DNA from: an uncultured Anaerolineae bacterium | GTDB taxonomy: Bacteria; Chloroflexota; Anaerolineae; J036; Brachytrichaceae | NCBI GenBank assembly: GCA_937959265.1 | Contig: CALGMA010000026.1 | Location: forward strand, 53,369 to 117,368 | Length of the DNA stretch: 64,000 nt | Reading direction: 5' to 3' | Part shown: piece by piece, positions 6,527 through 51,098 of the stretch | Layout: every line of letters begins with the position of its first letter | Position numbering within the stretch: the stretch's first letter is position 1 | Program-made: the position numbers and the translations under genes | Notes under the pieces: generated by a model | What the model saw: only the letters and a program-made list of their open reading frames with translations | The model's database searches: none | Told to the model about the DNA's origin: nothing

Positions 6527-8344
6527 ATGGCCTCAATCGAATCCAGGCCGATTCGCCTACTCGAATTAGTTGCCTGTGTTTTCGTGCTCGTTCTGACTGC
6601 CTGCTCGCCCGAACCGGCCCCGCCGGAGATTCCCGACGCCACGCCGCAGATTCGGTTGACGATCTTCGCGCCGACGGAAACACCGCTTCCCACGGCGACG
6701 CCGCAGCCTACCGACACACCGATGCCGCCTCAGCCAGTCCGCCTTCTCTTTGCCGGCGCGATTGACACGCTGCACCCCTTCTATGCCACATCGGCCGGTG
6801 CGCGCGACGTGCTGGGCGCGCTGTTCATTGGCTGCGTCGGTCAAGATGAGCAGAGCGCGCCGGTTGCGTTGGGATGTGAGCAAACGCCCACCGCAGAAAA
6901 CGGCGGCGCGATTTTCATCGGCGAAGGGTTGGATCGCCATTTGCAGGTGACCTTTCGGATCCGACCGGACTGGCGCTGGACTGACGGCGTCCCTGTCAGC
7001 GCGCTGGACGCGGTTTACGCCTGGCAGTTGGTCATGTCGCCGGAGGCCGGCCTGCGCGATCCGCTTGCCCAAAGTGTGTTCTCGATGATTGCGCTTGACG
7101 ACCGAACAGTCGTCGTGAATTTCATGAGCGCAGCACAGGCGCGCGCTGCAGCAGCAGGCGCGCTGCGGGGTGAGGTGCCGTTCGAATATTTCTCGCGGCT
7201 GGGCGACTACGCAGCCTATGCACAACGCGAACGGCCGCTGGCGCCGGCGAACTATTGGGCGGTGCTGCGCTGGTTGCCCGCGCACCTGTTGCGCGATGTG
7301 TCCTCGATGGAACAACGCAGCAGTGCGTTCGCTGCACGGCCGGTCGGCGACGGCGCCTATGAGATTGCTGACGTTGGTGAGAGCCGCATCGTGCTGCGGC
7401 CGTCGGCGCGGCCGTTCCCGATCGGTGCACCCGGCGTAGCCGGCATCGAGTTCGTCGCAGGTGGTCCGGCGACGCTGGTTCAAGGCAGTGCGCCGTTCGT
7501 CTCGCTCGAGCCGCTGCCCGACCGCGCGGCCGCGGGCGATGTGACCGCGATCAGTTATCCCGCCGGCCTCGAGCAACTGGTGTTCAACGTGGACCGCTTC
7601 CCGTTCGATGATGTGCGCGTGCGTCAGGCGGTGGCGCATGCGATTGACCGCGCGGCGCTGGTTGGCGACACACGTTCGGCTGTGCCTGCTCGCTCGGCGC
7701 TGTCGTACGATCCGGCTCGCTCACGCGCGCTGTTGGCCGAGGCCGGCTGGGTATGCAATACCTGGCCCTGCCGCAAGACATTCACGGACGCGAACGGGGC
7801 GGTTGTCACCCGCACGCTCGAATTCAAGCTGACCACGACCGAGCGCGAGCCGCGCAATACCATCGCGCAAATCATTCAAAAGCAATTAGCGGCAGTCGGC
7901 TTCGGGGTAGATATCGAGATCGTGTTCGGGCTTGGCCGTGAAAGCAAGATGTTTGCGCCTTATGAAGCAGGGGGGATCTTGCTCACGCGCAATTTCGATG
8001 CCGCGCTGTATCAGACGATCGCGCCAACTGCACTGGGCGGGCAATTCGGCTGTGCCAGTATCCCGACCCGCGATGCGCATGACTTCTCCAAAGGCAACGC
8101 CGGCGGTTTCTGCGACGAGGCTGTGGAGCGGTTGATCGCCGAAGCAGAAGACGGCGAATCCGTGATTTCGCCGCGCGCGCGGGAAAGAGCCTTTGCGCAG
8201 GCAGAGGCGGCAATCCAGCAGGCTGCGCCGTTCGTCCCGCTCTACGCGCCGAAGCGCGAGGCGTGGTCGCGTGGCGTGGCCGGCGTGCGGCCGTCGCCGT
8301 ATGTGCCGATTACGTGGAACGCCTGGGAGTGGCGTGCGCGCTGA
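6527..8344 (+). CDS. ABC transporter substrate-binding lipoprotein (peptide/Opp type)
   Basis: Lipobox-like VLVLTACSPEP; FRIRPDWRWTDGVPVSALDAVYAWQLVMSPEAG...RQAVAHAIDRAALV...NTIAQIIQKQLAAVGFGVDIEI, family 5 solute-binding protein. The 6398 start overlaps the clpP terminator and is unlikely. Confidence 0.8.
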   Translation: MASIESRPIRLLELVACVFVLVLTACSPEPAPPEIPDATPQIRLTIFAPTETPLPTATPQPTDTPMPPQPVRLLFAGAIDTLHPFYATSAGARDVLGALFIGCVGQDEQSAPVALGCEQTPTAENGGAIFIGEGLDRHLQVTFRIRPDWRWTDGVPVSALDAVYAWQLVMSPEAGLRDPLAQSVFSMIALDDRTVVVNFMSAAQARAAAAGALRGEVPFEYFSRLGDYAAYAQRERPLAPANYWAVLRWLPAHLLRDVSSMEQRSSAFAARPVGDGAYEIADVGESRIVLRPSARPFPIGAPGVAGIEFVAGGPATLVQGSAPFVSLEPLPDRAAAGDVTAISYPAGLEQLVFNVDRFPFDDVRVRQAVAHAIDRAALVGDTRSAVPARSALSYDPARSRALLAEAGWVCNTWPCRKTFTDANGAVVTRTLEFKLTTTEREPRNTIAQIIQKQLAAVGFGVDIEIVFGLGRESKMFAPYEAGGILLTRNFDAALYQTIAPTALGGQFGCASIPTRDAHDFSKGNAGGFCDEAVERLIAEAEDGESVISPRARERAFAQAEAAIQQAAPFVPLYAPKREAWSRGVAGVRPSPYVPITWNAWEWRAR

Positions 8345-8429
8345 GCAGGCTGACCCGTGCCGGCAACAGCAGTAGGGGAGAGATTGTCCCTTGAGAGGCC
8401 CCCGGCGCGTCTTTGTGCCTTCGGGTGAC

Positions 8430-9227
8430 TCACGGGGTCGATCGGTTCGTCTGACGCCGATCGAGCTTGACCTCCTCTAAAGCTTCGAGCTGGTCTTTGA
8501 GCATGCGCGATTGTTCGTCCACTTCGGTAGATAGGTGGCTGTAGTTGGCTGCCTGGTCGGTGGACTGCATCGCGAGCGCCTGTGAGTAGATCGCGCCGAG
8601 CGCAGCAACGGTGTTCTCCAACTGCACCTCGGCCTGGCGGGTGAGGCTCTGCAGTTTCTGCAGCGATTGCATCTGGTCGGCGCGCGCGGCCAGCGTGTGC
8701 TCGATGCTGGCGCGCACGTGCGGATCGGTCTCGGTCGCCAGTTGTGCAGTCAGTTTCTTGATAGCCTGCGGTACGTTCACGAGGTCGTTCTGGATGACCT
8801 CGTTGCGCTTGAATTCTTCGATGCGGCGCGACATTGCTTCGACCTCCTTCACCCAAATGGCGACCTGATCGGCCAGCTCGCGGAGCTTGTCTTTGCGCAT
8901 CGGGTCGCTGGTTGCGTTCATCAGCGCGTCTATCTGTCGCTTGTAGACCTGCGCCTGCGCTAGACGCGCTGCAGCCTCCGAGCCATGTGCGCTCTGTGCC
9001 GTCCCTCGGCTTTGTACCGTGCGCCTGGCAGCGTCATCCCCGCTTTCGTCGGCGAGGAAGATTCTGGATGCAGTGGCCAGCACCGAGATCAGCATCGCGC
9101 CAATTGGGAAGATTGCCCAGGGGAAATCCGGGCTGGTGACGACGTTGATCATGGCCAAGAAGAGCGTGACTGCAAACAACGGCGTCGTCTCTCGCAGAAA
9201 TCGCCTGAGTTTGGGGGATGTGTTCAT
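8430..9227 (-). CDS. Hypothetical protein with N-terminal 2 TM helices and long coiled coil
   Basis: MNTSPKLRRFLRETTPLFAVTLFLAMINVVTSPDFPWAIFPIGAMLISVLATASRIFL then heptad-rich helical region; start chosen at internal ATG. Confidence 0.7.
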   Translation of the reverse strand: MNTSPKLRRFLRETTPLFAVTLFLAMINVVTSPDFPWAIFPIGAMLISVLATASRIFLADESGDDAARRTVQSRGTAQSAHGSEAAARLAQAQVYKRQIDALMNATSDPMRKDKLRELADQVAIWVKEVEAMSRRIEEFKRNEVIQNDLVNVPQAIKKLTAQLATETDPHVRASIEHTLAARADQMQSLQKLQSLTRQAEVQLENTVAALGAIYSQALAMQSTDQAANYSHLSTEVDEQSRMLKDQLEALEEVKLDRRQTNRSTP

Positions 9228-9256
9228 GTCGCTCGGATTGTAGTAGGAGGGGAAGG

Positions 9257-9354
9257 GGGTGTATTTCTCTGCAGGGGCGAGACATGGGGTAGGCGCAGGC
9301 ATTGCCTGCGCCTACCCTCGTATGTTGCGCCTGCCCCTCGCCAGAAATGCACCC
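9257..9354. repeat. MITE-like nested imperfect inverted repeat (~98 bp) with a perfect 31-nt core palindrome at 9287-9317
   Basis: Left GGGTGTATTTCTCTGCAGGGGCGAGACAT, right reverse complement GGGTGCATTTCTGGCGAGGGGCAGGCGCAACAT; core GGGTAGGCGCAGGCATTGCCTGCGCCTACCC. Confidence 0.75.
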
Positions 9355-9396
9355 GGGGAGGGTGGCCGGCAGTTGGCGGCCTATAATTCAAACGTT

Positions 9397-12117
9397 ATGA
9401 GCGAGGGGCGTGCTATCGTGTGTGCGATTCTGCGCATCGCATGGTGCGCTTGCTTCGTTGTCGTCGTATCAGGCGTTGCAGTGCCGACCGCCCTCTTCGC
9501 TGCGTCTTATCAACCGGCTTCAGCACGCCAAGAGCGACGCATCGTCCTGAGCAGCGTGCCTGACGGCATCGTTCCGCGATCCGACAACATCTGGCAATGT
9601 GCATGTGATAACGACGGTTGCTGGCCGGGCTGCTTCACCATCGCCTCGGCGACCCTCCTGAAGTACTGGTCCGAGCGCGGCTATCCGGCGCTGTGGGACG
9701 GCAATGAGAGCGCTACTTTGCAGCGCTTGCGTGACTTGTTCCCCAACCTGTTCTGCTACAACAACGTGGATGATGATGGGAGGATCAGCGATAGCGGTTA
9801 CGACGCGGCCGACGTCGCCAAAGGGTTCGACTGGTTCGTGCGCGAGCGTGGCTATCAGTTCAGTGTCAGGGCAATCTACGCGCCGAAGTTCGAGCAAATC
9901 GTCGAGCAGATTGATGCCGGCCGGCCGGTCATCGGCGCATTCGGCACCTCGCCTTGGGGCAGCCATGCCGGCACCATCATCGGCTACGACGCGACCAACG
10001 GCCGGCGAGCGATGATCGTGCGCCCCAATTTACTCAACAAGCCCGATACCGAATTGGAGTGGGGCGTCGGCTATGGCGAATTCGCTATCGTCGTCGTCAT
10101 CCCGCAAGGCGCAAGTGAAGCGCTGGAGGTCGGCGGCGGCCCATCGCTCAGCGTCGAGGTCATCGTGAATGACGCCGATCCCGGCTTCACGGCCTACGGC
10201 GATTGGATCCCTTATCCGGTTGGATTTGCGAGCGAATCGCGCTTTGCGATCACGACCGATCCGTCTAACCTCGGCCCTGGCGACGATACCGCCGTTGCCC
10301 GCTGGACGCCTGATCTGCCCTTCGACGGCGTCTGGGAGGTGTTGGCCTGGGTGCCACGCGAAGATACCGACGACAGCGCGGTGCCGGTGGCTACCTATCG
10401 CATCGTGCACGCCGAAGGCATGAGCCTCGTGCGGCGCTCGCAGAACAAAGCCCGACCAGGCTGGATGGCGTTGGGTGCGTATCCCTTTGTGCGCGGCGAC
10501 GCCGGCTATGTCCTGTTGGGCAATCACACCGGCGACAATCCGCTGCGCAAGGTGTGGGCTGATGCGCTGAAGTTCGTATGGCGTGCGCCGCTCATCGTCC
10601 GCTCCGAAGTGGGTGGGCCGGAAGCGCTCGTCATCAACGGCCAGCGACGCACCATTCCCGATGTGCAAACGTTCGAAGCCCTGCGGCTGAATCCTGCGCA
10701 TGTACATGCAACTTCTCCCATTGCGCTGGCACAGTATGGCCCGGACGAGATCCTGCCTTCGGTGATGAGCGTATGGATCGGCCAGTATTTCAACAACACG
10801 TTGCTCTCTCCACCAGCCTCGCTGGTCAAGGCCGATTCGACGCTGAACTTTCGCTGGAATGGCGCCGCGCCGGCGGCCAACATGGGCGCGCGCGATTTCT
10901 CGGTGCGCTGGACGCGTTACCTGGCGCTGAGCGAGGGTGTCTATCCCTTCCGTATCGAGGCAGTGGGTGGCGTGCGGCTGTGGGTGGATAGCAAGTTGGA
11001 GATGGACGCCTGGGATGCGGATTCCAACGTGTATATCGCCCATGACAAGGATGTACGCGTGACCGCCGGCTTGCATCGCGTGGATATCGAGTACGTCAAC
11101 CGCGGCGGCAACGCGCAGATCCGCCTGGGCAACCTGCCACCCAACATGCCTATCGTGCCGGAGGAACCCGCGCGATGGCGTGCGTCGCCTACGGCGACGT
11201 TGCGCTGGTCCGATGCCGGCGACGCCGACGACGTCACCGGCGAAAGGCTGCGCCGTTTCTTCGTGACGGTATGGCGCGAAAGCGATGGCTGGCGCACGAC
11301 CAGCGGCTGGATCACAGAGACGCAATGGACGGTGAACCTGCCGGCGGATGGGCGTTACCTGTGGAGCGTGCTGGCAAGTGACGGCACGGCCAACAGCGAC
11401 GCTACGCTGCCACGCGAAATCCTGGTGGATCGCACACCGCCATGGGCGCAGATGCTTGATGCAACAACGGCAATCAGCCTGAGCGCGATGCTCAGCGCCA
11501 CGGCCAGCACGCCGGTAGATGCCTACCGGCTGATCACCGACGCGAACGGCAATCTGATCGTCGAGAGTGCTGCGCTCGATGAGGTCAGCGTGCCGCAGGT
11601 GCGGCCGGTGATTCCACCGATGGCAGGCATCGCGCCAGAGGCGCTGGGTAACCTACCGGCAGTGTACCTGCGCTGGTCTGGCAAAGATATGCCAGGCGAT
11701 TCAGATACGGGGTTGACTTATGATGTGCAGGTCCGCGAGATCGTGCGTGCGCGCACCAGCTATACGGTCACGACTGAAGAGGTGGCCGTGCCGCGTATTG
11801 CCTACGAGCTGATCTTGTCGGGCACGGAAGAGATCACGATGCCGGTAGTGTTGACGGAGGTCGTCGTCATGACGACCGTCGTGCCGCTGGTCGAGTTCCA
11901 GCCGATCGCCGACAGCTCATGGATCACGATCGCGACCGGCCTGCGAGAGACACACATGATCTTCATCGGCGATCCCGGCAGCACCTACGAGTTCCGCGTG
12001 CGCGCCGTGGATGCCGCTGGCAACGAGCAGAAATGGTATGACGGCTACTCCGTGCAGGCCATGATTGACCCGCGCAGCGTGGTGTATCGGGAGTATGTGC
12101 CGATCGTGCTGCGTTGA
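9397..12117 (+). CDS. Secreted multidomain protein: C39-like peptidase, golvesin/CBD-like module, PA14-like and fibronectin-like domains
   Basis: SVPDGIVPRSDNIWQCACDNDGCWPGCFTIASATLLKYW (Cys) and GSPWGSHAGTIIGYD-type (His) regions; WIGQYFNNTLLSPPASLVKADSTLNFRW PA14-like; signal peptide; C-term REYVPIVLR. Start MSEGRAIV chosen because 9259 lies in the repeat. Confidence 0.72.
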   Translation: MSEGRAIVCAILRIAWCACFVVVVSGVAVPTALFAASYQPASARQERRIVLSSVPDGIVPRSDNIWQCACDNDGCWPGCFTIASATLLKYWSERGYPALWDGNESATLQRLRDLFPNLFCYNNVDDDGRISDSGYDAADVAKGFDWFVRERGYQFSVRAIYAPKFEQIVEQIDAGRPVIGAFGTSPWGSHAGTIIGYDATNGRRAMIVRPNLLNKPDTELEWGVGYGEFAIVVVIPQGASEALEVGGGPSLSVEVIVNDADPGFTAYGDWIPYPVGFASESRFAITTDPSNLGPGDDTAVARWTPDLPFDGVWEVLAWVPREDTDDSAVPVATYRIVHAEGMSLVRRSQNKARPGWMALGAYPFVRGDAGYVLLGNHTGDNPLRKVWADALKFVWRAPLIVRSEVGGPEALVINGQRRTIPDVQTFEALRLNPAHVHATSPIALAQYGPDEILPSVMSVWIGQYFNNTLLSPPASLVKADSTLNFRWNGAAPAANMGARDFSVRWTRYLALSEGVYPFRIEAVGGVRLWVDSKLEMDAWDADSNVYIAHDKDVRVTAGLHRVDIEYVNRGGNAQIRLGNLPPNMPIVPEEPARWRASPTATLRWSDAGDADDVTGERLRRFFVTVWRESDGWRTTSGWITETQWTVNLPADGRYLWSVLASDGTANSDATLPREILVDRTPPWAQMLDATTAISLSAMLSATASTPVDAYRLITDANGNLIVESAALDEVSVPQVRPVIPPMAGIAPEALGNLPAVYLRWSGKDMPGDSDTGLTYDVQVREIVRARTSYTVTTEEVAVPRIAYELILSGTEEITMPVVLTEVVVMTTVVPLVEFQPIADSSWITIATGLRETHMIFIGDPGSTYEFRVRAVDAAGNEQKWYDGYSVQAMIDPRSVVYREYVPIVLR

Positions 12118-38852: not shown

Positions 38853-39731
38853 TTACACGCCCGCTCGCAATCGCGGGTTGAAGATTTCTTCTAACGAGCG
38901 GGTGAACAGCACCAGCGAAAGCTGGAACAGCGCAATCGCCGCCACCGGCGCCATGATGTTCAGGAAGCTGTCTCTGAAGAAGATCGCGCCGCGCGTCCAG
39001 GCCAGTTGGATCGTCACTGCCCAACTGTTGTTGTCAGAGAACGATAGCAGGCCGAGGAACACCAGACCGCCCTGGGCATAGACCGCAGCAGTCATAGCGA
39101 ACACCAGGCTGATGGCGATATAGCTCATCATGTTGGGCAGGATTTCTTTGAAGATGATGTGCCGGTTGCTCAGGCCGAGCGAGCGCGCCGCTTCGACGTA
39201 GTCGCGTTGGCGCAGCGAGAGCACCTGAGAGCGAATGGCGCGCGTCAATGTCGCCCATGACAATAGCGCCAGGATGAATGACAGCAGCCAGACGTCGTTC
39301 AATTTGATCTGCGTGGCCAGCACGGCGAGCAGCGGAAAGGTGGGGATGGCGAGCCAGAAGTCGGTCACCGCCATGATGGCCGAATCCACGGCGCCGCCCA
39401 GCAGCGCGCTGGTCGAGCCGAGCACGACGGCGATCAGCGTGCTGATCGCGCCGGTGAGGAAGGCGATGACGATCACGTCGCGCCCGCCGTGCACCACCAA
39501 CGAGAAGATGTCACGGCCCTGGAAGTCGGTGCCGAGGATGTGTTCGGCAGAGGGCGGGTTGTAGATTTTGTCCACGCGCGAGGTCTTGTCCAGCGGCACG
39601 AACCGCGGCATGACGAAGGCCAGGAATATGAAGAACACCAGCCCGATGAAGCCGAGAAACCCGGCCTTGTTGCGGGCGATCAGCCTGAGCGTTTGACCCA
39701 TCCAGTTGGCGATGTTTCTCAAGAACGTCAT
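38853..39731 (-). CDS. ABC transporter permease (OppC-like)
   Basis: GTDFQGRDIFSLVVHGGRDVIVIAFLTGAISTLIAVVLG; EAARSLGLSNRHIIFKEILPNMM. Confidence 0.92.
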   Translation of the reverse strand: MTFLRNIANWMGQTLRLIARNKAGFLGFIGLVFFIFLAFVMPRFVPLDKTSRVDKIYNPPSAEHILGTDFQGRDIFSLVVHGGRDVIVIAFLTGAISTLIAVVLGSTSALLGGAVDSAIMAVTDFWLAIPTFPLLAVLATQIKLNDVWLLSFILALLSWATLTRAIRSQVLSLRQRDYVEAARSLGLSNRHIIFKEILPNMMSYIAISLVFAMTAAVYAQGGLVFLGLLSFSDNNSWAVTIQLAWTRGAIFFRDSFLNIMAPVAAIALFQLSLVLFTRSLEEIFNPRLRAGV

Positions 39732-40819
39732 TTCGTTTCTCCCTGGCCCAGGCGGATGCGCGGGTCGAGCCGGCTGTACAACAGGTCGGCGATCAAGTTG
39801 GCCATGATCACCGAGATGGTGATGATTAGAAAGATGCCCTGCATCACCGGGTAGTCGCGCTGGTTGATGGCTTTGATCAGTTGCTGGCCGATGCCCTGAT
39901 ACACGAAGATGGCCTCGATCAACACCGAGCCACCGAAGACGAAGCCGATGCTAATGGCGAGCTGGGTGAACAGCGGCAGTGAAGCGTTGCGCCCAACGTA
40001 TGAGGTCATGATGCGCCCATCCTTCAGGCCGCGCGCCCGTGCCACGGTCACGTAGTCCTCTTCCAGTGTGGCGATCGTGCTGCTCTTCATGGCCAGCATC
40101 CAGCCGCCAATCGTGGTGAGCACATAGACGGAGATGGGCAGCGCAGCGTGATACAGCACGTCCAGGAAGAAGTGCAGCGTGAAGCCAGGTTGCACGCCGG
40201 GTGAGATCGAGCCGCGCATGCTGGCGATGTTGATGATCTTCAACTGCGGCCCCAGCACCACCAGCAAGATGATCGCGATCAGGTAATTCGGCACCGAGCT
40301 GACCAGCGACGCGAAGGTCGAGAACGCATAGTCAATCGGCGTCTCGCGTCGGTAGGCCATCAACATGCCCAGCGCCACACCAAAGATGAAGCTGATCAGC
40401 AGCGACGTGCCGACGCTGAACAACGTCCACGGCAGGAATTGGCGGATGATGTCGGCCACGTAGGTGCCCTTCGAACGATATGATTGTCCCAGGTCGCCGC
40501 GCAGCAAGTTGCCCAGATACTCCAGGTATTGCCGGCCTAGCGGTGCGTCGAGGTCAATCGCAAACAGCGCCGAGGCCTGATCGCGCGCCTCCTGGTACGA
40601 CATGCCATACATCGCAATCTGTTCCTGGATGAAGATCTCGACGGGATTGCTGGGCATCAATCGGATCAGGAAGAACGTCGCCGTTATCACGGCGAAGATC
40701 GTGATCAGCGCCTTCACCAAGCGACGGAAGACGTAGTTGCGAAAGATGCGCTGGAGTACGCCGGGGCGCGCCTGTTCCCCCGGCAAGCTGACGGGAATCG
40801 GAGCAGTTTGAACGGCCAT
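39728..40819 (-). CDS. ABC transporter permease (OppB-like)
   Basis: YVTVARARGLKDGRIMTSYVGRNASLPLFTQLAISIGFVFGGSVLIEAIFVYQGIGQQLIKAINQRDYPVMQG. Confidence 0.92.
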   Translation of the reverse strand: MAVQTAPIPVSLPGEQARPGVLQRIFRNYVFRRLVKALITIFAVITATFFLIRLMPSNPVEIFIQEQIAMYGMSYQEARDQASALFAIDLDAPLGRQYLEYLGNLLRGDLGQSYRSKGTYVADIIRQFLPWTLFSVGTSLLISFIFGVALGMLMAYRRETPIDYAFSTFASLVSSVPNYLIAIILLVVLGPQLKIINIASMRGSISPGVQPGFTLHFFLDVLYHAALPISVYVLTTIGGWMLAMKSSTIATLEEDYVTVARARGLKDGRIMTSYVGRNASLPLFTQLAISIGFVFGGSVLIEAIFVYQGIGQQLIKAINQRDYPVMQGIFLIITISVIMANLIADLLYSRLDPRIRLGQGETK

Positions 40820-40950
40820 GCGTTACGCACTCATGCAGTGATCGGCGCAAGCGCAGCAGCATGCGTTTCGCCCGCGCCATGTGCCAAACGGGTGAATCGA
40901 ATTGCGATGCTCGCGTGATATTAGCACGCGGGCTTTCCTCCGACAAACGC

Positions 40951-41736
40951 TCATGCGATGATCGTGTGAATGCCGAGCGCGCGTACGCCCTCGACGAAGG
41001 GCGCTGGTGCGCCGGCGTCGGTGATCAGGGTGTGGATCGCCGAGAGCGGCGCGACGAACGCCGCGGCAGCGCGTCCGCACTTGGTGTGATCGGCCAGCAG
41101 GATCACTTCGCGCCCGATCTTCAGGATGGCGCGGTCGGTCAGCGTCTCCTGCAAGTCAGTGTTCGTCAGGCCGTGTTGCAAGTCTACGCCGTAGATGCCG
41201 ATGAAAACTTTATCTGCGCGTACTTCGGCCAGCGCCTGTTGGGCGATATGGCCGATGAGCGACATCTCGCTGCGGTTGAGCACGCCGCCCAGCGCAACCA
41301 GGTTGATTCCCGGCGCGCCGGCCAGCACGTTGAGCACTGGCAGGGAGTTGGTGATGACGTTCAGTCGCCTGGCCGAGCGCAGATGCAACGCGACTTCGAG
41401 TACCGTGCTGCCGCTGCTCAGGAAGATCGTCTCGCCCTCGTTGACCAGTGCCGCCGCTGCCGCGCCAATGCGCGCTTTCTCGCTGGCTTGCTCGGCGGAG
41501 CGGGGCAGGGTGCGGGGCCGACGAAGCTCGTCGCTCTGCTGCCCGTCTGGCGAAAGCGCCACCGCGCCGCCATGTACGCGCTTGATCTTGCCCTGCTTCG
41601 CCAGCGCGTCCAAGTCGCGCCGCGCGGTGGCGAGGCTGACCGTGAAGGCATCGCATAGCTCATGCATGCTCACCCGTTGCTGTTGCTGGATGAACTGCAC
41701 CATGCGGCGATGTCGCTCTAAGGTCGAAGAAGCCAT
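40951..41736 (-). CDS. DeoR/GlpR-family transcriptional regulator
   Basis: RHRRMVQFIQQQQRVSMHELCDAFTVSLATARRDLDALAKQGKIKRVHGGAVAL. Confidence 0.92.
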   Translation of the reverse strand: MASSTLERHRRMVQFIQQQQRVSMHELCDAFTVSLATARRDLDALAKQGKIKRVHGGAVALSPDGQQSDELRRPRTLPRSAEQASEKARIGAAAAALVNEGETIFLSSGSTVLEVALHLRSARRLNVITNSLPVLNVLAGAPGINLVALGGVLNRSEMSLIGHIAQQALAEVRADKVFIGIYGVDLQHGLTNTDLQETLTDRAILKIGREVILLADHTKCGRAAAAFVAPLSAIHTLITDAGAPAPFVEGVRALGIHTIIA

Positions 41737-41782
41737 AGCGCGCTCCGGCAGATTGACCTGATATAGATCGCTGCCTTGAGCC

Positions 41783-41811
41783 AGAGTACGCTAAATTTGA
41801 GCGGTTGTCAA
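41783..41811 (-). promoter_or_regulatory. Sigma70-type promoter for the DeoR-family gene
   Basis: Minus strand TTGACA-N17-TACTCT, -10 end ~47 bp from the start codon. Confidence 0.6.
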
Positions 41812-41872
41812 TCATTAGATGGATAATTGATCGAAAATTGAGCGATTTGTGTTCTTGAGCAACGCGGCACAG

Positions 41873-42997
41873 TTAAATTTCGCGATCGAGCAGGTGCATG
41901 ACCCGCTCGGTGACGATGCGAACTTCCTCGTCCGTCAGCGTCATCGGGTTGAGCAGGATGCTACTAGCCTCATCCGATGCGCCGACGCTGATGCGGGGGC
42001 TGCCGTCCCATAGCCGGGCGATCAGCTCGTCGCGCGTGATGCCAACGCGGCGTGAGTCAATCCGCACTTCGCAGCGCGGCAAGGGCTGGCCGGCTTCATT
42101 GGGGAATGAGCGCACAGCGCGCACGCCGGGCAGCGCGTTGAACGTCGCGCACCAATCGGCCACCACGCGCTCGTCGCGTTCACGGCGCTCTTCGTGATCG
42201 AGTGCGCTATAGCGTTTCACTGCGGCCAGCAGCCCGACCATTTCCTCTTTGCCCACCTTCATCGGCCGGCCGATGCCGTGGTTCGGGCTGCTGAGCCTGC
42301 GCATGGCTTGGATCAACTCGCGCCGGCCGACGACCAGGCCGGTGGTCTGCGGGCCGCGCAGATCCTTGCCGCCGCTGAAGATGGCGCACGCTGCACCCAT
42401 CTGCGTAAAGCGCCACAGGTTCTCCACCGGCGGCAGTTGAGCCGCAGCATCCACGACTACCGGCACGCCGCGCGCCCGGCACGCTGCGATGACGCACTCG
42501 ATCGGCAAATCGCCTCGGCCGGTGAAGTAGCCCTGAAACCAGACGAACGCCGCCGTGCGCGGGCTGAACGCTGCTTCCAGCTCATCCGGGTCGGTATGTG
42601 TCTCGCCGCCGATCTCGATCACTTTCACACCGGTCTGGCGCACGGCAAAGTCGTAGCCGTTGCGGTGTGAGGTGAACATGATCACCTCGTTCTTGTCGAG
42701 CGCATCGGTGTGGGGCAGGCGCCGCGCCAGTTCCCGGTCGCCGCCTGAGACGCACGCGGCGACGGCGAGCATGATGCCCGCAGCCGCGCCGGTGGTGACC
42801 ATCGCTGCCTCGTTGCCGGTCAGCGCGGCAAGCCTTTCGCCCACGCGGTCATGCAATTCTTCGAGATCCACATGGAAGCGCGCTGCGTCCTCCATCGCGG
42901 CGATCACTTCCGGCGGCATCACGCTGCCGCCCAGCTTCGTCAGTGTGGCGTTGGCGTTAATCACCGGCTGAACGCCCAGGTCGTCATAGATGCTCAT
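41873..42997 (-). CDS. SelA/DgaE-like PLP-dependent enzyme
   Basis: MSIYDDLGVQPVINANATLTKLGGSVMPPEVIAAMEDAARFHVDLEELHDRVGERLAALTGNEAAMVTTGAAAGIMLA...FSGGKDLRGPQTTGLVVGR (PLP Lys candidate). Confidence 0.82.
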   Translation of the reverse strand: MSIYDDLGVQPVINANATLTKLGGSVMPPEVIAAMEDAARFHVDLEELHDRVGERLAALTGNEAAMVTTGAAAGIMLAVAACVSGGDRELARRLPHTDALDKNEVIMFTSHRNGYDFAVRQTGVKVIEIGGETHTDPDELEAAFSPRTAAFVWFQGYFTGRGDLPIECVIAACRARGVPVVVDAAAQLPPVENLWRFTQMGAACAIFSGGKDLRGPQTTGLVVGRRELIQAMRRLSSPNHGIGRPMKVGKEEMVGLLAAVKRYSALDHEERRERDERVVADWCATFNALPGVRAVRSFPNEAGQPLPRCEVRIDSRRVGITRDELIARLWDGSPRISVGASDEASSILLNPMTLTDEEVRIVTERVMHLLDREI

Positions 42998-43075
42998 GGT
43001 GAGGTTGGGGGTTAAGGGTTAGGCAGGATCATGGGTTCGTCTCGTTGATCCCCTCGCCCGGTCGGGTCGTTGCTG

Positions 43076-44311
43076 TCAGGAGGGAATCACCCAATACTCC
43101 GGCGGCGCGGCGGTCCATTCGGGCGCGCTCAGCCCGCCGATGTCGAAGACGATCTCGCCGGCGCGAATCGTCAGGAGGCATTCCAGCTTTCGGTCGCCGG
43201 TGAGCCTGGCGCGTCCGCAGTCAACGAAGCCAAACCGACCGGTGTGCAGCTCGAAGACGGCGACATCGGCGCACGCGCCGACGCCCAGATGACCTAGCTC
43301 GGGATGGCCGATTTGGTGAGCCGGGTTCGCCGTGCTCATCTTGATCACGTCGTAGAGCGGCACGCCGGCGTTCAGGATCTTGCTCATCGTAGTCTGCATG
43401 TCTACCACGACGCCGTGCACATTGCGGATATGAAGGTCGGTGCTGATCGAGTCCGGCGGGAAGCCGCCCTGGATGGCGGGCACGGCGCTGCGGAACCAGA
43501 AGCTGGCCGCGCCGTGGCCGACGTCGAAGATCACCCCGCGCGCCCGCGCCTCGAACATGAAAGCGTTGACCCTGCCGGCCTTGTTGATGATGGGGAATTG
43601 CTGGGCATAGACGTGCGTGTGGATGTCGCCGGGCCGCGCCTTCTTCAAGATCAGCTCTTCATAGCTGCGCTCCGGTGGTCGTGGCCAGAAGTCATACATC
43701 ACATGCCGGCCGCACAGCTCGGCGGCCTTGATCGCTTGATCTGCGGCTGCCCAGGGCGTGTGCAACGTGTCCCATGGCTGGTGCGTCCAGTAGTGTGCGG
43801 TCTTGATGCCGATGCAAATGTCAGGGTAGGTGATCACGGCTTCGGCGGCGCGCTCGGCGTCGAATGTGCGCGGGTCTTGCTCCCAGTCGCCCAACATGCC
43901 GTTATCGCTAATGTTGACGTAGGCGAAGATGCGCGTCTTGGCGCGATCAATAACCGTTTCTTTGAAGTGCCGGATGTGATTCGCGCCGGCAGTTCCGGTA
44001 TCCACCACTGTAGTCACACCGCTGCGGAAGGTGTGCGCGTCGGCCAGCACGCTCAGGCCTTCCGGCGCACCCTCCGGTGCGCGCGTGTGGTAGGCGTGCA
44101 TGTGGATGTCGAGGATGCCGGGTGTGACGTAGCGGCCAGAGACGTCAATCACCTGAGCGGCCAACGCCGGAGCGATGTCCGGCTCGACGGCGGCGATTCG
44201 GCCGTTCGCGATGGCCACGTCGCGTTTGCCATCCAGCCCGTTCTTCGGGTCAATCACATGCCCACCCTTGAGTAGGAGAGCATAGGGCGGCTGCGATATA
44301 TCAAGCGTCAT
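43076..44311 (-). CDS. Amidohydrolase/deacetylase family metallohydrolase
   Basis: LLKGGHVIDPKNGLDGKRDVAIANGRIAAVEP...RYVTPGILDIHMHAYHT...GIKTAHYW...STDLHIRNVHG. Confidence 0.88.
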   Translation of the reverse strand: MTLDISQPPYALLLKGGHVIDPKNGLDGKRDVAIANGRIAAVEPDIAPALAAQVIDVSGRYVTPGILDIHMHAYHTRAPEGAPEGLSVLADAHTFRSGVTTVVDTGTAGANHIRHFKETVIDRAKTRIFAYVNISDNGMLGDWEQDPRTFDAERAAEAVITYPDICIGIKTAHYWTHQPWDTLHTPWAAADQAIKAAELCGRHVMYDFWPRPPERSYEELILKKARPGDIHTHVYAQQFPIINKAGRVNAFMFEARARGVIFDVGHGAASFWFRSAVPAIQGGFPPDSISTDLHIRNVHGVVVDMQTTMSKILNAGVPLYDVIKMSTANPAHQIGHPELGHLGVGACADVAVFELHTGRFGFVDCGRARLTGDRKLECLLTIRAGEIVFDIGGLSAPEWTAAPPEYWVIPS

Positions 44312-46472: not shown

Positions 46473-48470
46473 CTAGGCGAAGATCATCTCCAGCTTGAAC
46501 TCGCGGATCTTGCCGACGTCGTAACGCGCCTTATCCGCGACCAGCAGCGTCCACTCGCCGCTAGGGGACTTGCCGGCGACTGCGGCCAGCGCCGGCGTAT
46601 TCGCGGTGTCATAAGTTTGCTTAATGTGATCGGCGGCGCCGCCTTGCCGGTTGTGCAGCACGATGTCGCCGATGCCGGAAGCCGGCGGAGGCTTGAGCGT
46701 GACGACCAGGTCGCCGCGATAGGTGTGCTCGATGTCCACCCAGACCTTCAGCGCCTTGAGCGGGCGCGTCTCGGCGACAGTCGCGCTGAGTTTGGCCGAC
46801 TTCAGGTCGGGGATCGGCACATCCTGCTTGACCGAGACGATCACCACCGGCTGGGGCTGAGGGGGCGCTGCCAGCTCGACTGCCCTGTGAGCGTTTACTC
46901 GTCCGAAGCCATACCAGGGGCTGCGGCCGTTCGCGTCGTAGTTACCGTTGGCCGAATCTATCTTGTCGCAGGCGTTTTTGATGATCTCGCGCACCTCGTC
47001 CCAGCGCAAGTCGGGGTTGCGCGCCAGGATAAGCGCTGCGACGCCGGCTACGCCGGGGCATGCGCTTGATGTGCCGCCAAAGCTGTTCGTGTAGTTGCCC
47101 TGCGCGTCGCCGCGGCTGGTCTGGCCGGGGTTATAGCCGAGCGCGCCTGTGCGATCCGTCGTCCAGATGCCGGGCGTCAGCGATGGGCGACCGTTGCTGC
47201 TGGGGAAGGCGCACCAGATGGCTTTGCCGTAGTCGCTATAGGCGGCGCGCGTGCCCATGTCGTTGCAGGCTGCTACGGCGATCACCTTCTCGTAGCTGGC
47301 ATAGCCGTCGTTGTCTACGCTCTCGTTGCCGTTGCCGGCAGCGAACAGAATCACGCAGCCTTTGCCGTTGCGCCCGTTGCGTGTGGCATAGTCCATCGCC
47401 AGGCGTGTAGAGTCCGGCAAAGGCACGACCTGCTTGTGCAGTGGATCGTTGGGGTTCCACCATTCGCCGTCGGCCGGTCCCCAACTACACGAGATCACGT
47501 CGGCGCCGTTCTGCGCTGCCCATACGAAGGCGTCGGCCTCGCTCTGCGAGCCGAGGCCGGAGGCCAGCCGGATCGGCATCAGCCGCGCCTTGGGCGCCAC
47601 GCCAGCTGCGCCGAAGGCGCCGTTGGCGCACGCGACGCCGGCGCAGGCCGTGCCGTGATTGTCGAAGTTGCCCGGACGGGGGTCATTCGTCCGGCGCGTC
47701 ACGTCGCGCGGGGCGACGATCTTGCCCGCCGAGCGGAACTCTTCGTGGTCAATGTCCACCCCATCGTCAATGATGGCGATCGTCACTCCTTCGCCTTGCG
47801 AGAGTGCCCAGGCAGCCTCGACGTTGGCGCTCTGGTCTATTGCCCGGCCGCCGATGGTGGTCTTGCGCAGGTGCCATTGGGTGAGGAAAGCTGCCCGGTC
47901 ACGCCGGCGGCGGATCAGCTCGGGATGGCAGAGCTCGACGGCTTCGTCCTCGAGCAACCGCCGGGCGAGGTCGAACACTTCAAGCCCGATGCCCTCCGGC
48001 GCGCCGAGGAAGTAGCCGTTGCGCGTGTAGTCTACATGCGCCTTGATGGCGAGCCCATACTTCTTGATGAGCTGGCGGCAGGTCGCAGTCTTCGTCTCGT
48101 CGTCGAATTTGACGAAGAGGTTCTCGGTGTAAAGCACCGGCGCCTTCGATTGCGGATCCACCAGCACACGGCCGGCGAAACGCACGTCTGGTTCACCCTT
48201 CAGCACCGCGCGTGCCTGATCGCGGATGGACTTGGCCTGGCGCGTCGAGCGCGTCCGTAGCACGGCCACACCGGCGTTGAAATACTGCTCTTCGAGTTCG
48301 AAATGGCCAAGGATTACCAGAGCATCGTCGGAGAGTGCTGCGCCTTCGCCGGGTGCGGTCGCAAAGACCGGATTGTGGCTGCGGGTGCGCACGGCGATGA
48401 GATCGTTGCTCTCTTCTAGCTTGTAAGTCTGTCCCCTTTTGCCTCCATATTGGACGGTGTATGCGCTCAT
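46473..48470 (-). CDS. Subtilisin/kexin-like S8 protease with N-terminal prodomain and C-terminal P/proprotein domain
   Basis: VTIAIIDDGVDIDHEEF (Asp), NFDNHGTACAGVACAN (His), FGGTSSACPGVAGVAALIL (Ser); C-term VSVKQDVPIPDLKSAKLSATVAETRPLKALKVWVDIEHTYRGDLVVTLKPP P-domain-like. Confidence 0.92.
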   Translation of the reverse strand: MSAYTVQYGGKRGQTYKLEESNDLIAVRTRSHNPVFATAPGEGAALSDDALVILGHFELEEQYFNAGVAVLRTRSTRQAKSIRDQARAVLKGEPDVRFAGRVLVDPQSKAPVLYTENLFVKFDDETKTATCRQLIKKYGLAIKAHVDYTRNGYFLGAPEGIGLEVFDLARRLLEDEAVELCHPELIRRRRDRAAFLTQWHLRKTTIGGRAIDQSANVEAAWALSQGEGVTIAIIDDGVDIDHEEFRSAGKIVAPRDVTRRTNDPRPGNFDNHGTACAGVACANGAFGAAGVAPKARLMPIRLASGLGSQSEADAFVWAAQNGADVISCSWGPADGEWWNPNDPLHKQVVPLPDSTRLAMDYATRNGRNGKGCVILFAAGNGNESVDNDGYASYEKVIAVAACNDMGTRAAYSDYGKAIWCAFPSSNGRPSLTPGIWTTDRTGALGYNPGQTSRGDAQGNYTNSFGGTSSACPGVAGVAALILARNPDLRWDEVREIIKNACDKIDSANGNYDANGRSPWYGFGRVNAHRAVELAAPPQPQPVVIVSVKQDVPIPDLKSAKLSATVAETRPLKALKVWVDIEHTYRGDLVVTLKPPPASGIGDIVLHNRQGGAADHIKQTYDTANTPALAAVAGKSPSGEWTLLVADKARYDVGKIREFKLEMIFA

Positions 48471-48650
48471 GAATCCTCCTCTTCCCGTTGCGGAGACGGC
48501 GCACGACTGCGACCCTCGGAATAGGCGCACTCGGGAGGGTGAACGCTCGGCGCCGTCGCTTGGGGATATGCGGTGATGATAGCGGCCGATATAATCCTGT
48601 CAAACAGTCGTCGAATCACCATCATCCTGCATACGTATGTGGCATCAGTC

Positions 48651-49130
48651 ATGAGCAATCTGTCGGACTACCCGACGCGCCTGCGCGCCAGCACGGAGCA
48701 TCCCGAGGTGATCTATACGCGCGCTAAGGGTTATCACGCCGTCAAGAACGCGCCGCGCGCTCAAGCGAAGGATGCTGTGCTGGCGCTGGAAGACGATGAC
48801 AGTACCTACTTGATCCTGGAGGGGGAGCCGAAGACACTCAGCGAGGAAGTCAGCGCCGTCTATCGGGGCAGTGGCGGCACGCTGGTCGTGCCGACTGGCC
48901 GGGTCTTCATCCGTTTGGACGAAGGCACGCGCGTCGAGGCGCATGCTCACGCGTTTCGCAAGCTCGGCTTCGTCATTGCCCAGTCGCCGCCCTACGCGCC
49001 CCACGTTGCCTGGCTAGAGCGCGAAGATGGCGATGCCGCTGCTGCGCTGCACAGCGTCGGCGCACTGGAGAAACTGCCGCAGGTGTGCAACGTTGAACCC
49101 CAGCTGCTTGCAGCGCGTGCATTGCGTTGA
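48651..49130 (+). CDS. Small protein resembling the prodomain of the adjacent subtilase
   Basis: TLVVPTGRVFIRLDEGTRVEAHAHAFRKLGFVIAQSPPYAPHVAWLEREDG-DAAAALHSVGALEKLPQVCNVEPQLL aligns by eye with subtilase N-term APVLYTENLFVKFDDETKTATCRQLIKKYGLAIKAHVDYTRNGYFLGAPEGIGLEVFDLARRLLEDEAVELCHPELI. Confidence 0.7.
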   Translation: MSNLSDYPTRLRASTEHPEVIYTRAKGYHAVKNAPRAQAKDAVLALEDDDSTYLILEGEPKTLSEEVSAVYRGSGGTLVVPTGRVFIRLDEGTRVEAHAHAFRKLGFVIAQSPPYAPHVAWLEREDGDAAAALHSVGALEKLPQVCNVEPQLLAARALR

Positions 49131-49187: not shown

Positions 49188-51098
49188 ATGTCTCACTCAA
49201 ACTTCCTCGAACGCCTGGCCGAACGCCCTTTGCTCGCCGATGGCGCCATGGGCACGATGTTGTATGCGCGCGGCTTCGACTTCGACGAGTGTTACGACGC
49301 ACTCAACCTGAAGCATCCCGAGGTCGTTTTAGATATTCATCGCCAATACGCTGCCGCCGGCGCAGACATCTTGGAGACGAACACGTTCGGCGCCAACGCG
49401 TTCCGGCTGGCCGAGTGGAATCTGGAAGGTTCGGCGGCGGAGATCAACGCGCGCGGCGTGGAACTGGCGCGTCAGGCTGCGCGCGACGTGCGGGCAGATA
49501 TCCTCATCGCCGGTGCGGTGGGGCCACTGGGCGCAAACCTCGCTCCGCTGGGCAGCATCAGCCGGGAAGAAGCCTACCACGCGTTCTACGAGCAGATCGG
49601 CGCGCTGGCCGAAGCGGGCGCCGATCTGCTGGTCCTCGAAACCTTCTCTGACCTGACCGAACTCGAAGAAGCCTTGCGCGCAGCCAAAGTGGTGTGCGGC
49701 CTGCCGGTGGTCGCTCAGATGACCTTCAACCGCGAACAGCGTACCGTAATGGGCGTGACGCCCCTGCAGGCTGTTCAGGTGCTGGCAACCTGGCAGCCGG
49801 CGCTCATCGGCGCGAATTGCTCCACCGGGCCACGCGGCGTGCTCGAAGTGATGCGCCAGATGGCAGCGGCAGCGAAGACCATGCATGGCCGCGCGCCGGG
49901 GCTTTCTGCCATGCCCAATGCCGGCTTTCCCGAGGCGCGCGGTTCGCGGGTGTTCTATCCGGCTACACCTGAATACTTCGCCGACTATGCGCAGCGTTTC
50001 ATCGAGACCGGCGTGCGTTTGGTGGGTGGGTGCTGCGGCACCACGCCGGCACATGTGCGTGCCATGCGCGCCGCGTTCGATGCGCTGACGCAAAGTGCAC
50101 CTGCGTCTTCGGCGATTGCCAGGGTCGAAATTCCTCATCCTGCCGAGGTTCGTGCGCATCCGTTCGGCGACGCCGGCACCCCCACCACGCTGGCTCAAGC
50201 GCTGGCTGAGGGACGCTTTGTGACCACGGTCGAGGTTGAGCCACCCAAAAGCGCCGACACCTCGGCTATCGAAGAGACGGCTTGCATGCTGAAGGAAGCC
50301 GGCGCGACGGTGCTCGACATCTCTGACATCCCGATGGCGCGCATGCGCATGACCGGCCTGGCCGCCGCGCATCGCGTGCAAGCCGGCGCAGAGATCGAGA
50401 CCGTGCTGCATTTCCCCGTGCGCGGGCGCAACCTGCTTCGCATACAGGGCGACTTGCTGGCTGCCCACGCGCTGGGCATCCGCAACATCTTTGTTACGAT
50501 GGGCGACCCGACGCGCATCGGCGATTATCCGCAGGCTAACGACAATCACGACATCGTGCCTACCGGCCTGGTGCAGATGATCAAAGAGCGGTTCAACACG
50601 GGTCTGGATGGGCTGGGCGCGTCTATCGGCAAGCCATGTTCGTTCTTCGTCGGCGTGGCCGCGAATCTCACCCCGACCGACTTCGAGAAGGAAGCCAGGC
50701 TGCTGCACAAGAAGATCGAGTGTGGCGCGGACTTCGCACTGACTCAGCCGGTGTTCGACGCGGAGATGGCGCGCCGGTTCATCGCCTACTACGAGCAGAT
50801 GTTCGGCAAACTCACGCTGCCGATCCTGGTTGGCATCCTGCCGCTGGCGAGCGTGCGCCATGCCCAGTTCCTGCGCAACGAGGTGCCGGGCGTGGTGCTG
50901 CCGGAGGCGATCGTGCAGCGCTTGGAGGCGGCCGGTAACAAGACCCGCACCGAAGGCGCGATCATCGCCATGGAGGTTCTGCATAGCATCCGCGACCGGG
51001 TGCAGGGCGCGTACTTCATCCCTGCCTTCGGGCGCTACGACATCGTAGCGAGGCTGATCCAGCAGACGACTGGCCAGCTCCAGCCCTTGTCTTCCTAG
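49188..51098 (+). CDS. Bifunctional homocysteine S-methyltransferase / 5,10-methylenetetrahydrofolate reductase
   Basis: LLADGAMGTMLYARGFDFDECYDALNLKHPEVVLDIHRQYAAAGADILETNTFGAN...VGGCCGTTPAHVRAM; then MTHFR-like TTVEVEPPKSADTSAIEE. Confidence 0.92.
   Translation: MSHSNFLERLAERPLLADGAMGTMLYARGFDFDECYDALNLKHPEVVLDIHRQYAAAGADILETNTFGANAFRLAEWNLEGSAAEINARGVELARQAARDVRADILIAGAVGPLGANLAPLGSISREEAYHAFYEQIGALAEAGADLLVLETFSDLTELEEALRAAKVVCGLPVVAQMTFNREQRTVMGVTPLQAVQVLATWQPALIGANCSTGPRGVLEVMRQMAAAAKTMHGRAPGLSAMPNAGFPEARGSRVFYPATPEYFADYAQRFIETGVRLVGGCCGTTPAHVRAMRAAFDALTQSAPASSAIARVEIPHPAEVRAHPFGDAGTPTTLAQALAEGRFVTTVEVEPPKSADTSAIEETACMLKEAGATVLDISDIPMARMRMTGLAAAHRVQAGAEIETVLHFPVRGRNLLRIQGDLLAAHALGIRNIFVTMGDPTRIGDYPQANDNHDIVPTGLVQMIKERFNTGLDGLGASIGKPCSFFVGVAANLTPTDFEKEARLLHKKIECGADFALTQPVFDAEMARRFIAYYEQMFGKLTLPILVGILPLASVRHAQFLRNEVPGVVLPEAIVQRLEAAGNKTRTEGAIIAMEVLHSIRDRVQGAYFIPAFGRYDIVARLIQQTTGQLQPLSS

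Follow-up and report, generated by a model that had tools for sequence, protein, structure and literature searches.

We describe a divergent gene pair in which a small stand-alone protein is probably a trans-acting candidate inhibitor, prodomain-like in type and mimicking a cleavage product, of an intracellular kexin-like protease (P0001) encoded next to it. The pair lies in the window, a stretch of 64,000 nucleotides. Homology links the C-terminal half of the small protein with the second half of the prodomain in the neighboring protease. Given that both the fold and the cut end of such a prodomain are copied, the small protein is most probably a built-in inhibitor of the protease.

Two divergent genes under purifying selection

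Both open reading frames (Table 1) lie at the coordinates given in a first-pass annotation of this DNA, and the divergent gap that it had put at about 180 bp measures 180 bp. The protease ATG is directly preceded by a GAGGAGG ribosome site. In the small protein, Met1 is invariant in an alignment of 12 relatives and the C-terminus is also conserved, which marks it as the product of a separate gene lying outside any protease precursor; because of the invariant Met1 (48651), a longer 185-aa version starting from a GTG at 48573 is unlikely. Purifying selection on the 159-aa reading frame, with dN/dS values among seven congeners of 0.08 to 0.36, shows it to be a real gene, and the protease is likewise constrained (0.06 to 0.17). 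Of the two, the small protein evolves faster, at 51 to 87% identity to the window protein versus 79 to 94% for the protease. Neither N-terminus is hydrophobic on the Kyte-Doolittle scale: within the first 60 aa the best 15-residue mean is 0.26 to 0.77 in the small protein and does not exceed 1.16 in the protease, in line with the earlier remark that neither protein has an obvious signal peptide. This absence fits the further suggestion, made at the same time, that the protease may be intracellular. Searches of Pfam, NCBIfam and PADLOC gave no above-threshold family match for the small protein.

The protease has a promoter of sigma-70 type in which the TGTCAA columns and most −10 columns are invariant in eight congeners. 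A plus-strand TATAAT could be the −10 of the small gene, and no good −35 was found for it. Because this hexamer sits inside the protease promoter, the two promoters may compete. Beside the pair, the window encodes a homocysteine S-methyltransferase fused to methylenetetrahydrofolate reductase (49188-51098), and at 39728-44311 a permease, a DeoR-type regulator, a SelA-like PLP enzyme and an amidohydrolase stand in a row that resembles a catabolic operon.

Table 1. Features of the protease and small-protein genes, in positions of the window.
Feature	Position	Strand	Basis or remark
Protease P0001 gene	46473..48470	−	665 aa, kexin/furin-like S8, no signal peptide
P-domain of proprotein convertases	46488..46754	−	PF01483 P_proprotein, aa 573-661, E 1.5e-12
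S8 catalytic domain	46956..47795	−	Pfam, kexin alignment, invariance in seven orthologs
Basic junction R187-R192 (IRRRRDR/AAF), presumed self-cleavage site	47895..47912	−	Arg/Lys at 192 in 12/12 orthologs
Prodomain second part, homologous to small protein	47895..48143	−	hhalign P 4e-7; AF2 secondary structure
Prodomain first subdomain (aa 1-109), ferredoxin-like in model	48144..48470	−	AF2, mostly pLDDT 65-91
Sigma-70-like promoter of protease, TTGACA-16-TATCAT	48576..48603	−	11/12 consensus
TATAAT, possible −10 of small gene	48590..48595	+	In 7/8 congeners; overlaps protease promoter
Small gene	48651..49130	+	159 aa; candidate inhibitor, stand-alone and prodomain-like
I9-type propeptide domain of small protein (aa 77-156)	48879..49118	+	AF2 and Foldseek
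R156-A-L-R159, putative product-mimic tail (P4...P1 Arg)	49116..49127	+	Invariant R156/R159; hhalign

The small protein as a relative of the prodomain

Profiles of 12 small proteins and 10 prodomains, compared by hhalign, gave a 98-column alignment that stays collinear up to the ends, with a score of 48.5, a probability of 92.8 and a P of 4.1e-7; the best of 300 column shuffles scored 25.0 and the reversed profile 11.3. The C-terminal half of the small protein alone reached a probability of 94.6 against the prodomain. The by-eye alignment of these two regions in the first-pass annotation is upheld by the profile score of 48.5 against shuffles that never exceeded 25.0. Searched against genus orthologs, the small-protein profile also finds the prodomain of the neighboring protease at 17 to 24 bits, the longest matches running over positions 48-158, and similar bits are reached by chance matches picked from genome scans; scores near 20 bits from single-sequence HMM searches are thus no proof, and the real evidence comes from the shuffled profile comparison together with the fold. 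Extra BLAST/HMM matches in G240 (a CO-dehydrogenase-like protein), G323 C52 (type I restriction-like), G392 (YebC-like) and G116 were judged by their sequences to be due to chance. Direct sequence searches of the PDB with either the small protein or the prodomain as query returned chance matches only. Among Pfam families, PF22148 (Fervidolysin_NPro-like) matched 4 of the 12 small proteins weakly (best E 0.013), with the G208 protein at E 0.026, below the cut-off, in the genome scan, and PF18492 (ORF_2_N) gave sub-threshold matches in two of the 12 (best E 0.013). The prodomain of a different S8 protease with a P-domain (in G245) was found by the small-protein profile at E 6.5e-8; the whole-genome search, with its limit at E 0.05, did not list that of P0001. 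An origin of the small gene as a recent duplicate of the P0001 prodomain was rejected for this reason, the G245 prodomain fitting the small protein better.

The AF2 model of the small protein (pLDDT 90, pTM 0.83) contains an I9-type domain with the elements E77-89, H95-104, E107-111, E119-124, H129-134, H136-140 and E145-156. For this C-terminal half, Foldseek gave a probability of 1.00 to 3vv2_B, 9fid_D, 1scj_B, 2z56_B and 2z58_B; among the matches listed, only propeptides reached this value, at target TM scores of 0.64 to 0.76 (0.76 for the Tk-subtilisin propeptide 3vv2_B and 0.74 for 9fid_D, the PC1/3 prodomain on furin), and those propeptides were solved in complex with their proteases. 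In the AF2 model of the protease, the prodomain forms two tandem ferredoxin-like units, the first built of E14-29, H48-54, E57-63, E68-73, H79-91 and E96-104. Modeling of both regions, which the first-pass annotation had put forward as a check, therefore yields a propeptide fold in the small protein and a ferredoxin-like tandem in the prodomain. Judged by the order of these AF2 elements, the small protein would represent a complete second prodomain unit preceded by a shrunken first unit that lacks the long helices. In the full-length protease model, pLDDT falls below 50 across the catalytic domain, a quality unfit for docking or fold search.

Ferredoxin-like folds are common, and the lowest Foldseek E-values went to the tandem RRMs of NONO/SFPQ, which would suit a protein that has kept the fold and lost this function, for example a ferredoxin-like protein with a structural, regulatory or RNA-binding role that stands nearby by common descent. 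We consider this very improbable, as the RRM matches have a TM of about 0.3 and an rmsd above 11 Å and stay outside the propeptide-only group at probability 1.00, it is S8 prodomains to which the sequence is homologous, and the very end of the C-terminus does not vary, a feature needed by a mimic and not by a scaffold.

A C-terminal tail resembling a cleavage product

The small proteins end in ...VEPQLLxARxxR, with R156 and R159 invariant in all 12; 10 of them terminate at R159, and one extra residue is present in G293 and G156. Since hhalign pairs residue 158 with prodomain residue 191, R159 falls on R192, the presumed cut junction of the protease. There the prodomain closes with ...CHPELIRRRRDR and continues beyond the junction as AAF...QWHL. 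Position 192 lies 43 residues ahead of the catalytic Asp235, and in furin the distance from the self-cleavage point to the catalytic Asp is similar. Position 192 is likely the point at which the protease would cut itself. The prodomain is complete and conserved in the protease orthologs, and the conserved basic residues of the junction follow no strict P1/P4 pattern. Two precedents bear on the tail. The isolated PC1/3 prodomain binds furin via its C-terminal P1 Arg110, P2 Lys109 and P4 Arg107 (PMC12405487), and the C-terminal Lys of ORF2 of Aeromonas sits at the catalytic Ser of the protease ASP, with an IC50 of 84 nM (PMC5638518). Taken with these precedents, an R-x-x-R tail placed on the junction makes the small protein resemble a ready-made cleavage product.

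ORF2 also acts on its kexin-like protease as an external folding chaperone (PMC5638518), and the small protein could do likewise, any inhibition then being a merely transient by-product. The sub-threshold contact of two of the 12 small proteins with ORF_2_N and the rank of ASP as one of the best solved relatives of the protease are in keeping with such a role. These Pfam matches are weak, however, and a more distant genome from another family, G381, has an ortholog of the prodomain without a small gene. ASP has no propeptide, whereas P0001 has a complete and conserved tandem prodomain; because the protease carries a prodomain of its own, we regard a chaperone as unlikely and favor an inhibitor.

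A kexin-like protease with a putative arginine pocket

P0001 consists of a prodomain of about 190 aa followed by an S8 catalytic domain (Pfam Peptidase_S8 at aa 226-505, E 5.5e-47) and a P-domain. Its best solved relatives are kexins (E about 4e-32), with mirolase, ASP and furin behind, and its orthologs in 11 relatives are 66 to 94% identical. The triad Asp235, His272 and Ser468 and the oxyanion Asn380 are conserved by Pfam and by the kexin alignment and are invariant in seven orthologs, as are the S1-type acids D334, D386, D388 and D413 and the S4-type E311. In the phmmer kexin alignment, D334 is aligned directly with the Asp of the kexin SWGPAD, and D386 and D413 align with kexin acids that we take to be S1/calcium ligands. 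D388-G-Y matches furin Asp306-Gly-Tyr308 by the DGY motif alone, which needs a short gap absent from the phmmer alignment. E311 aligns with the Glu of kexin 'tedEaa', the equivalent of furin Glu236, and the furin S4 acid Asp264 has no clear counterpart in the protease in the kexin alignment. The pocket acids for a P1 Arg, equivalent to furin Asp258 and Asp306, are thus present (the roles of these S1 acids and of the S4 acids Glu236 and Asp264 are described in PMC8453481). Because the S1-type acids of kexin and furin are kept and are invariant in orthologs, a preference of the protease for P1 Arg is likely; a preference for P4 Arg is less sure.

The G381 protease has the same prodomain type and is longer, with no P-domain match; its junction is less basic (LIRQRSQTSIY), and no small gene was found in that genome. 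By eye, SH3-like repeats and Cys-rich ends replace the P-domain in this protein (7365-10109). In G156, the reading frame of the protease ortholog breaks between catalytic domain and P-domain (7974-8039).

Co-occurrence within one family

Among 396 Anaerolineae genomes searched, of which 28 belong to the own family, the small protein occurs in 12 of these 28, plus a remnant in G278, and a protease ortholog (66% identity or more) is present in the same 12. The two genes are divergent neighbors in all eight genomes of the genus that have them, so the conserved neighborhood on which the first-pass reading depended is found in every genome of the genus with both genes. The ninth genome, G228, lacks both because everything in the block right of its acetyl-CoA synthetase gene went in a single loss; around 8531 its synteny ends directly after that gene, and the fused homocysteine methyltransferase/MTHFR is missing there along with the protease and the small gene. 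Two other genera keep both genes, but on different contigs; the genes are clearly apart in G003 and G156. The local neighbors differ there (ffh, for example, adjoins the small gene in G003 and G073). The co-occurrence is suggestive, and it reflects mostly vertical descent within one clade.

Two further members of the small-protein family were seen. G041 encodes a second, diverged stand-alone member of 163 aa (contig 39, 6030-6521, minus strand; E 6.6e-19) with a basic tail (SRHKREE) and no recognized protease-like ORF adjoining. The G278 remnant, in a distant family, covers the C-terminal part (about 6740-6949, plus strand; E 5e-16) without a start or first half and is probably a decayed gene.

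Since the G245 prodomain scored better than that of P0001, the true target could be another subtilase, and the small protein might be a propeptide-type inhibitor of a different subtilase of the cell or of proteases from outside. Further S8 proteases, several of them, are encoded in the genome with prodomains of the Fervidolysin type, and both the separation from P0001 in two genera and the faster evolution of the small protein would accord with another target. Yet no subtilase other than P0001 was seen in precisely the set of genomes that have the small protein, the divergent linkage of the two is conserved within the genus, the tail fits P0001's P1-Arg pocket, and outside targets are unlikely because the small protein has no signal peptide. 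On this balance we think a different target improbable and retain P0001 as the preferred one.

The first-pass annotation had also seen in the locus a possible stress or conflict system. Its candidate pairing of a divergent subtilase with a stand-alone prodomain-like inhibitor is borne out by fold and neighborhood, but the stress or conflict reading gained no support, given housekeeping neighbors, vertical inheritance, a consensus sigma-70 promoter on the protease and a search of viral contigs and plasmids that found no homologs of the pair. PADLOC gave a weak match for the small protein, a generic subtilase match for the protease and nothing more. A conflict, defense or toxin-antitoxin module was rejected, as there were no convincing defense genes and the pattern is vertical in one family.

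Proposed mode of action

We propose that P0001 may be an intracellular or non-classically exported kexin/furin-like enzyme that would cut after Arg, having folded with its own tandem prodomain and cut itself at the basic junction between R187-R192 and A193. The small protein would stand in permanently, as a molecule of its own, for the half of such a prodomain that inhibits. Its I9-type domain would pack onto the catalytic domain while the R-x-x-R-COOH extends along the active-site cleft in the manner of a self-cleavage product, R159 in S1 and R156 in S4, and the active enzyme would remain blocked in trans until the small protein is removed or outcompeted. SUB1-ProM provides a precedent for inhibition in trans (PMC6993865). 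We give roughly even chances to the wider idea of cytoplasmic furin-like processing, in which an Arg-specific convertase-type protease is restrained by a separate R-x-x-R prodomain mimic, independently of its own prodomain. If true, this would reveal a way to keep a potent Arg-cutting protease in a cytoplasm and show that prodomains can become free, independent regulators in bacteria, and would offer a small bacterial model for convertase inhibition by prodomains.

Relation to known protease-inhibitor systems

To our knowledge, stand-alone prodomain inhibitors are recognized mainly in eukaryotes, and such pairs are little described in bacteria. Stand-alone propeptide-like inhibitors are a known kind, and POIA1, yeast Pbi2, Arabidopsis SPI-1, Toxoplasma MIC5 (TgMIC5) and Plasmodium SUB1-ProM are likewise encoded by small separate genes and share the subtilisin-propeptide fold, the SUB1-ProM locus also adjoining subtilase genes (PMC6993865). 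All of these are eukaryotic, unlike the small protein, and inhibitors of the POIA1 type resemble propeptides mainly by fold, whereas in the small protein sequence homology is still detectable by profile. None of them is known to target an Arg-specific convertase by way of a C-terminal R-x-x-R. The prodomains of PC1/3 and furin come closer in this respect, sharing with the small protein the I9-type fold (9fid_D, Foldseek 1.00) and a tail with P4 and P1 Arg, and in isolation the PC1/3 prodomain can both bind and inhibit in trans (PMC12405487). They are made within the protease and cleaved off, whereas the small protein has its own gene and a different N-terminal half.

Among bacterial systems, PopC of Myxococcus xanthus is by description also a subtilisin-like protease without a signal peptide that is restrained by a partner, PopD (PMC6434023), but it differs from P0001 in having an N-terminal part without recognizable domains and no described P-domain. 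In Bacillus subtilis the intracellular subtilisin Isp1 is inhibited by a separate protein, IPI (PMC3901451), as proposed here; IPI, however, has an Ig-like fold and Isp1 a short propeptide only, both unlike the present pair. The nearest case is ASP/ORF2 of Aeromonas sobria (PDB 3hjr, 3wqb), also a bacterial kexin-like S8 protease with an adjoining small partner gene, and the inhibition of ASP by ORF2, with a C-terminal basic residue at the active site, is a likeness to the small protein (PMC5638518). ASP is secreted and has no propeptide, whereas P0001 has a tandem prodomain and no signal peptide, and orf2 lies downstream of asp, whereas the small gene is divergent from the protease. New here are the bacterial setting, a furin-like enzyme still equipped with a prodomain of its own, and an invariant C-terminal R-x-x-R on a separate putative mimic: where ORF2 replaces a missing propeptide in the known bacterial relative, the present system retains the prodomain and adds a separate candidate mimic with a furin-type tail.
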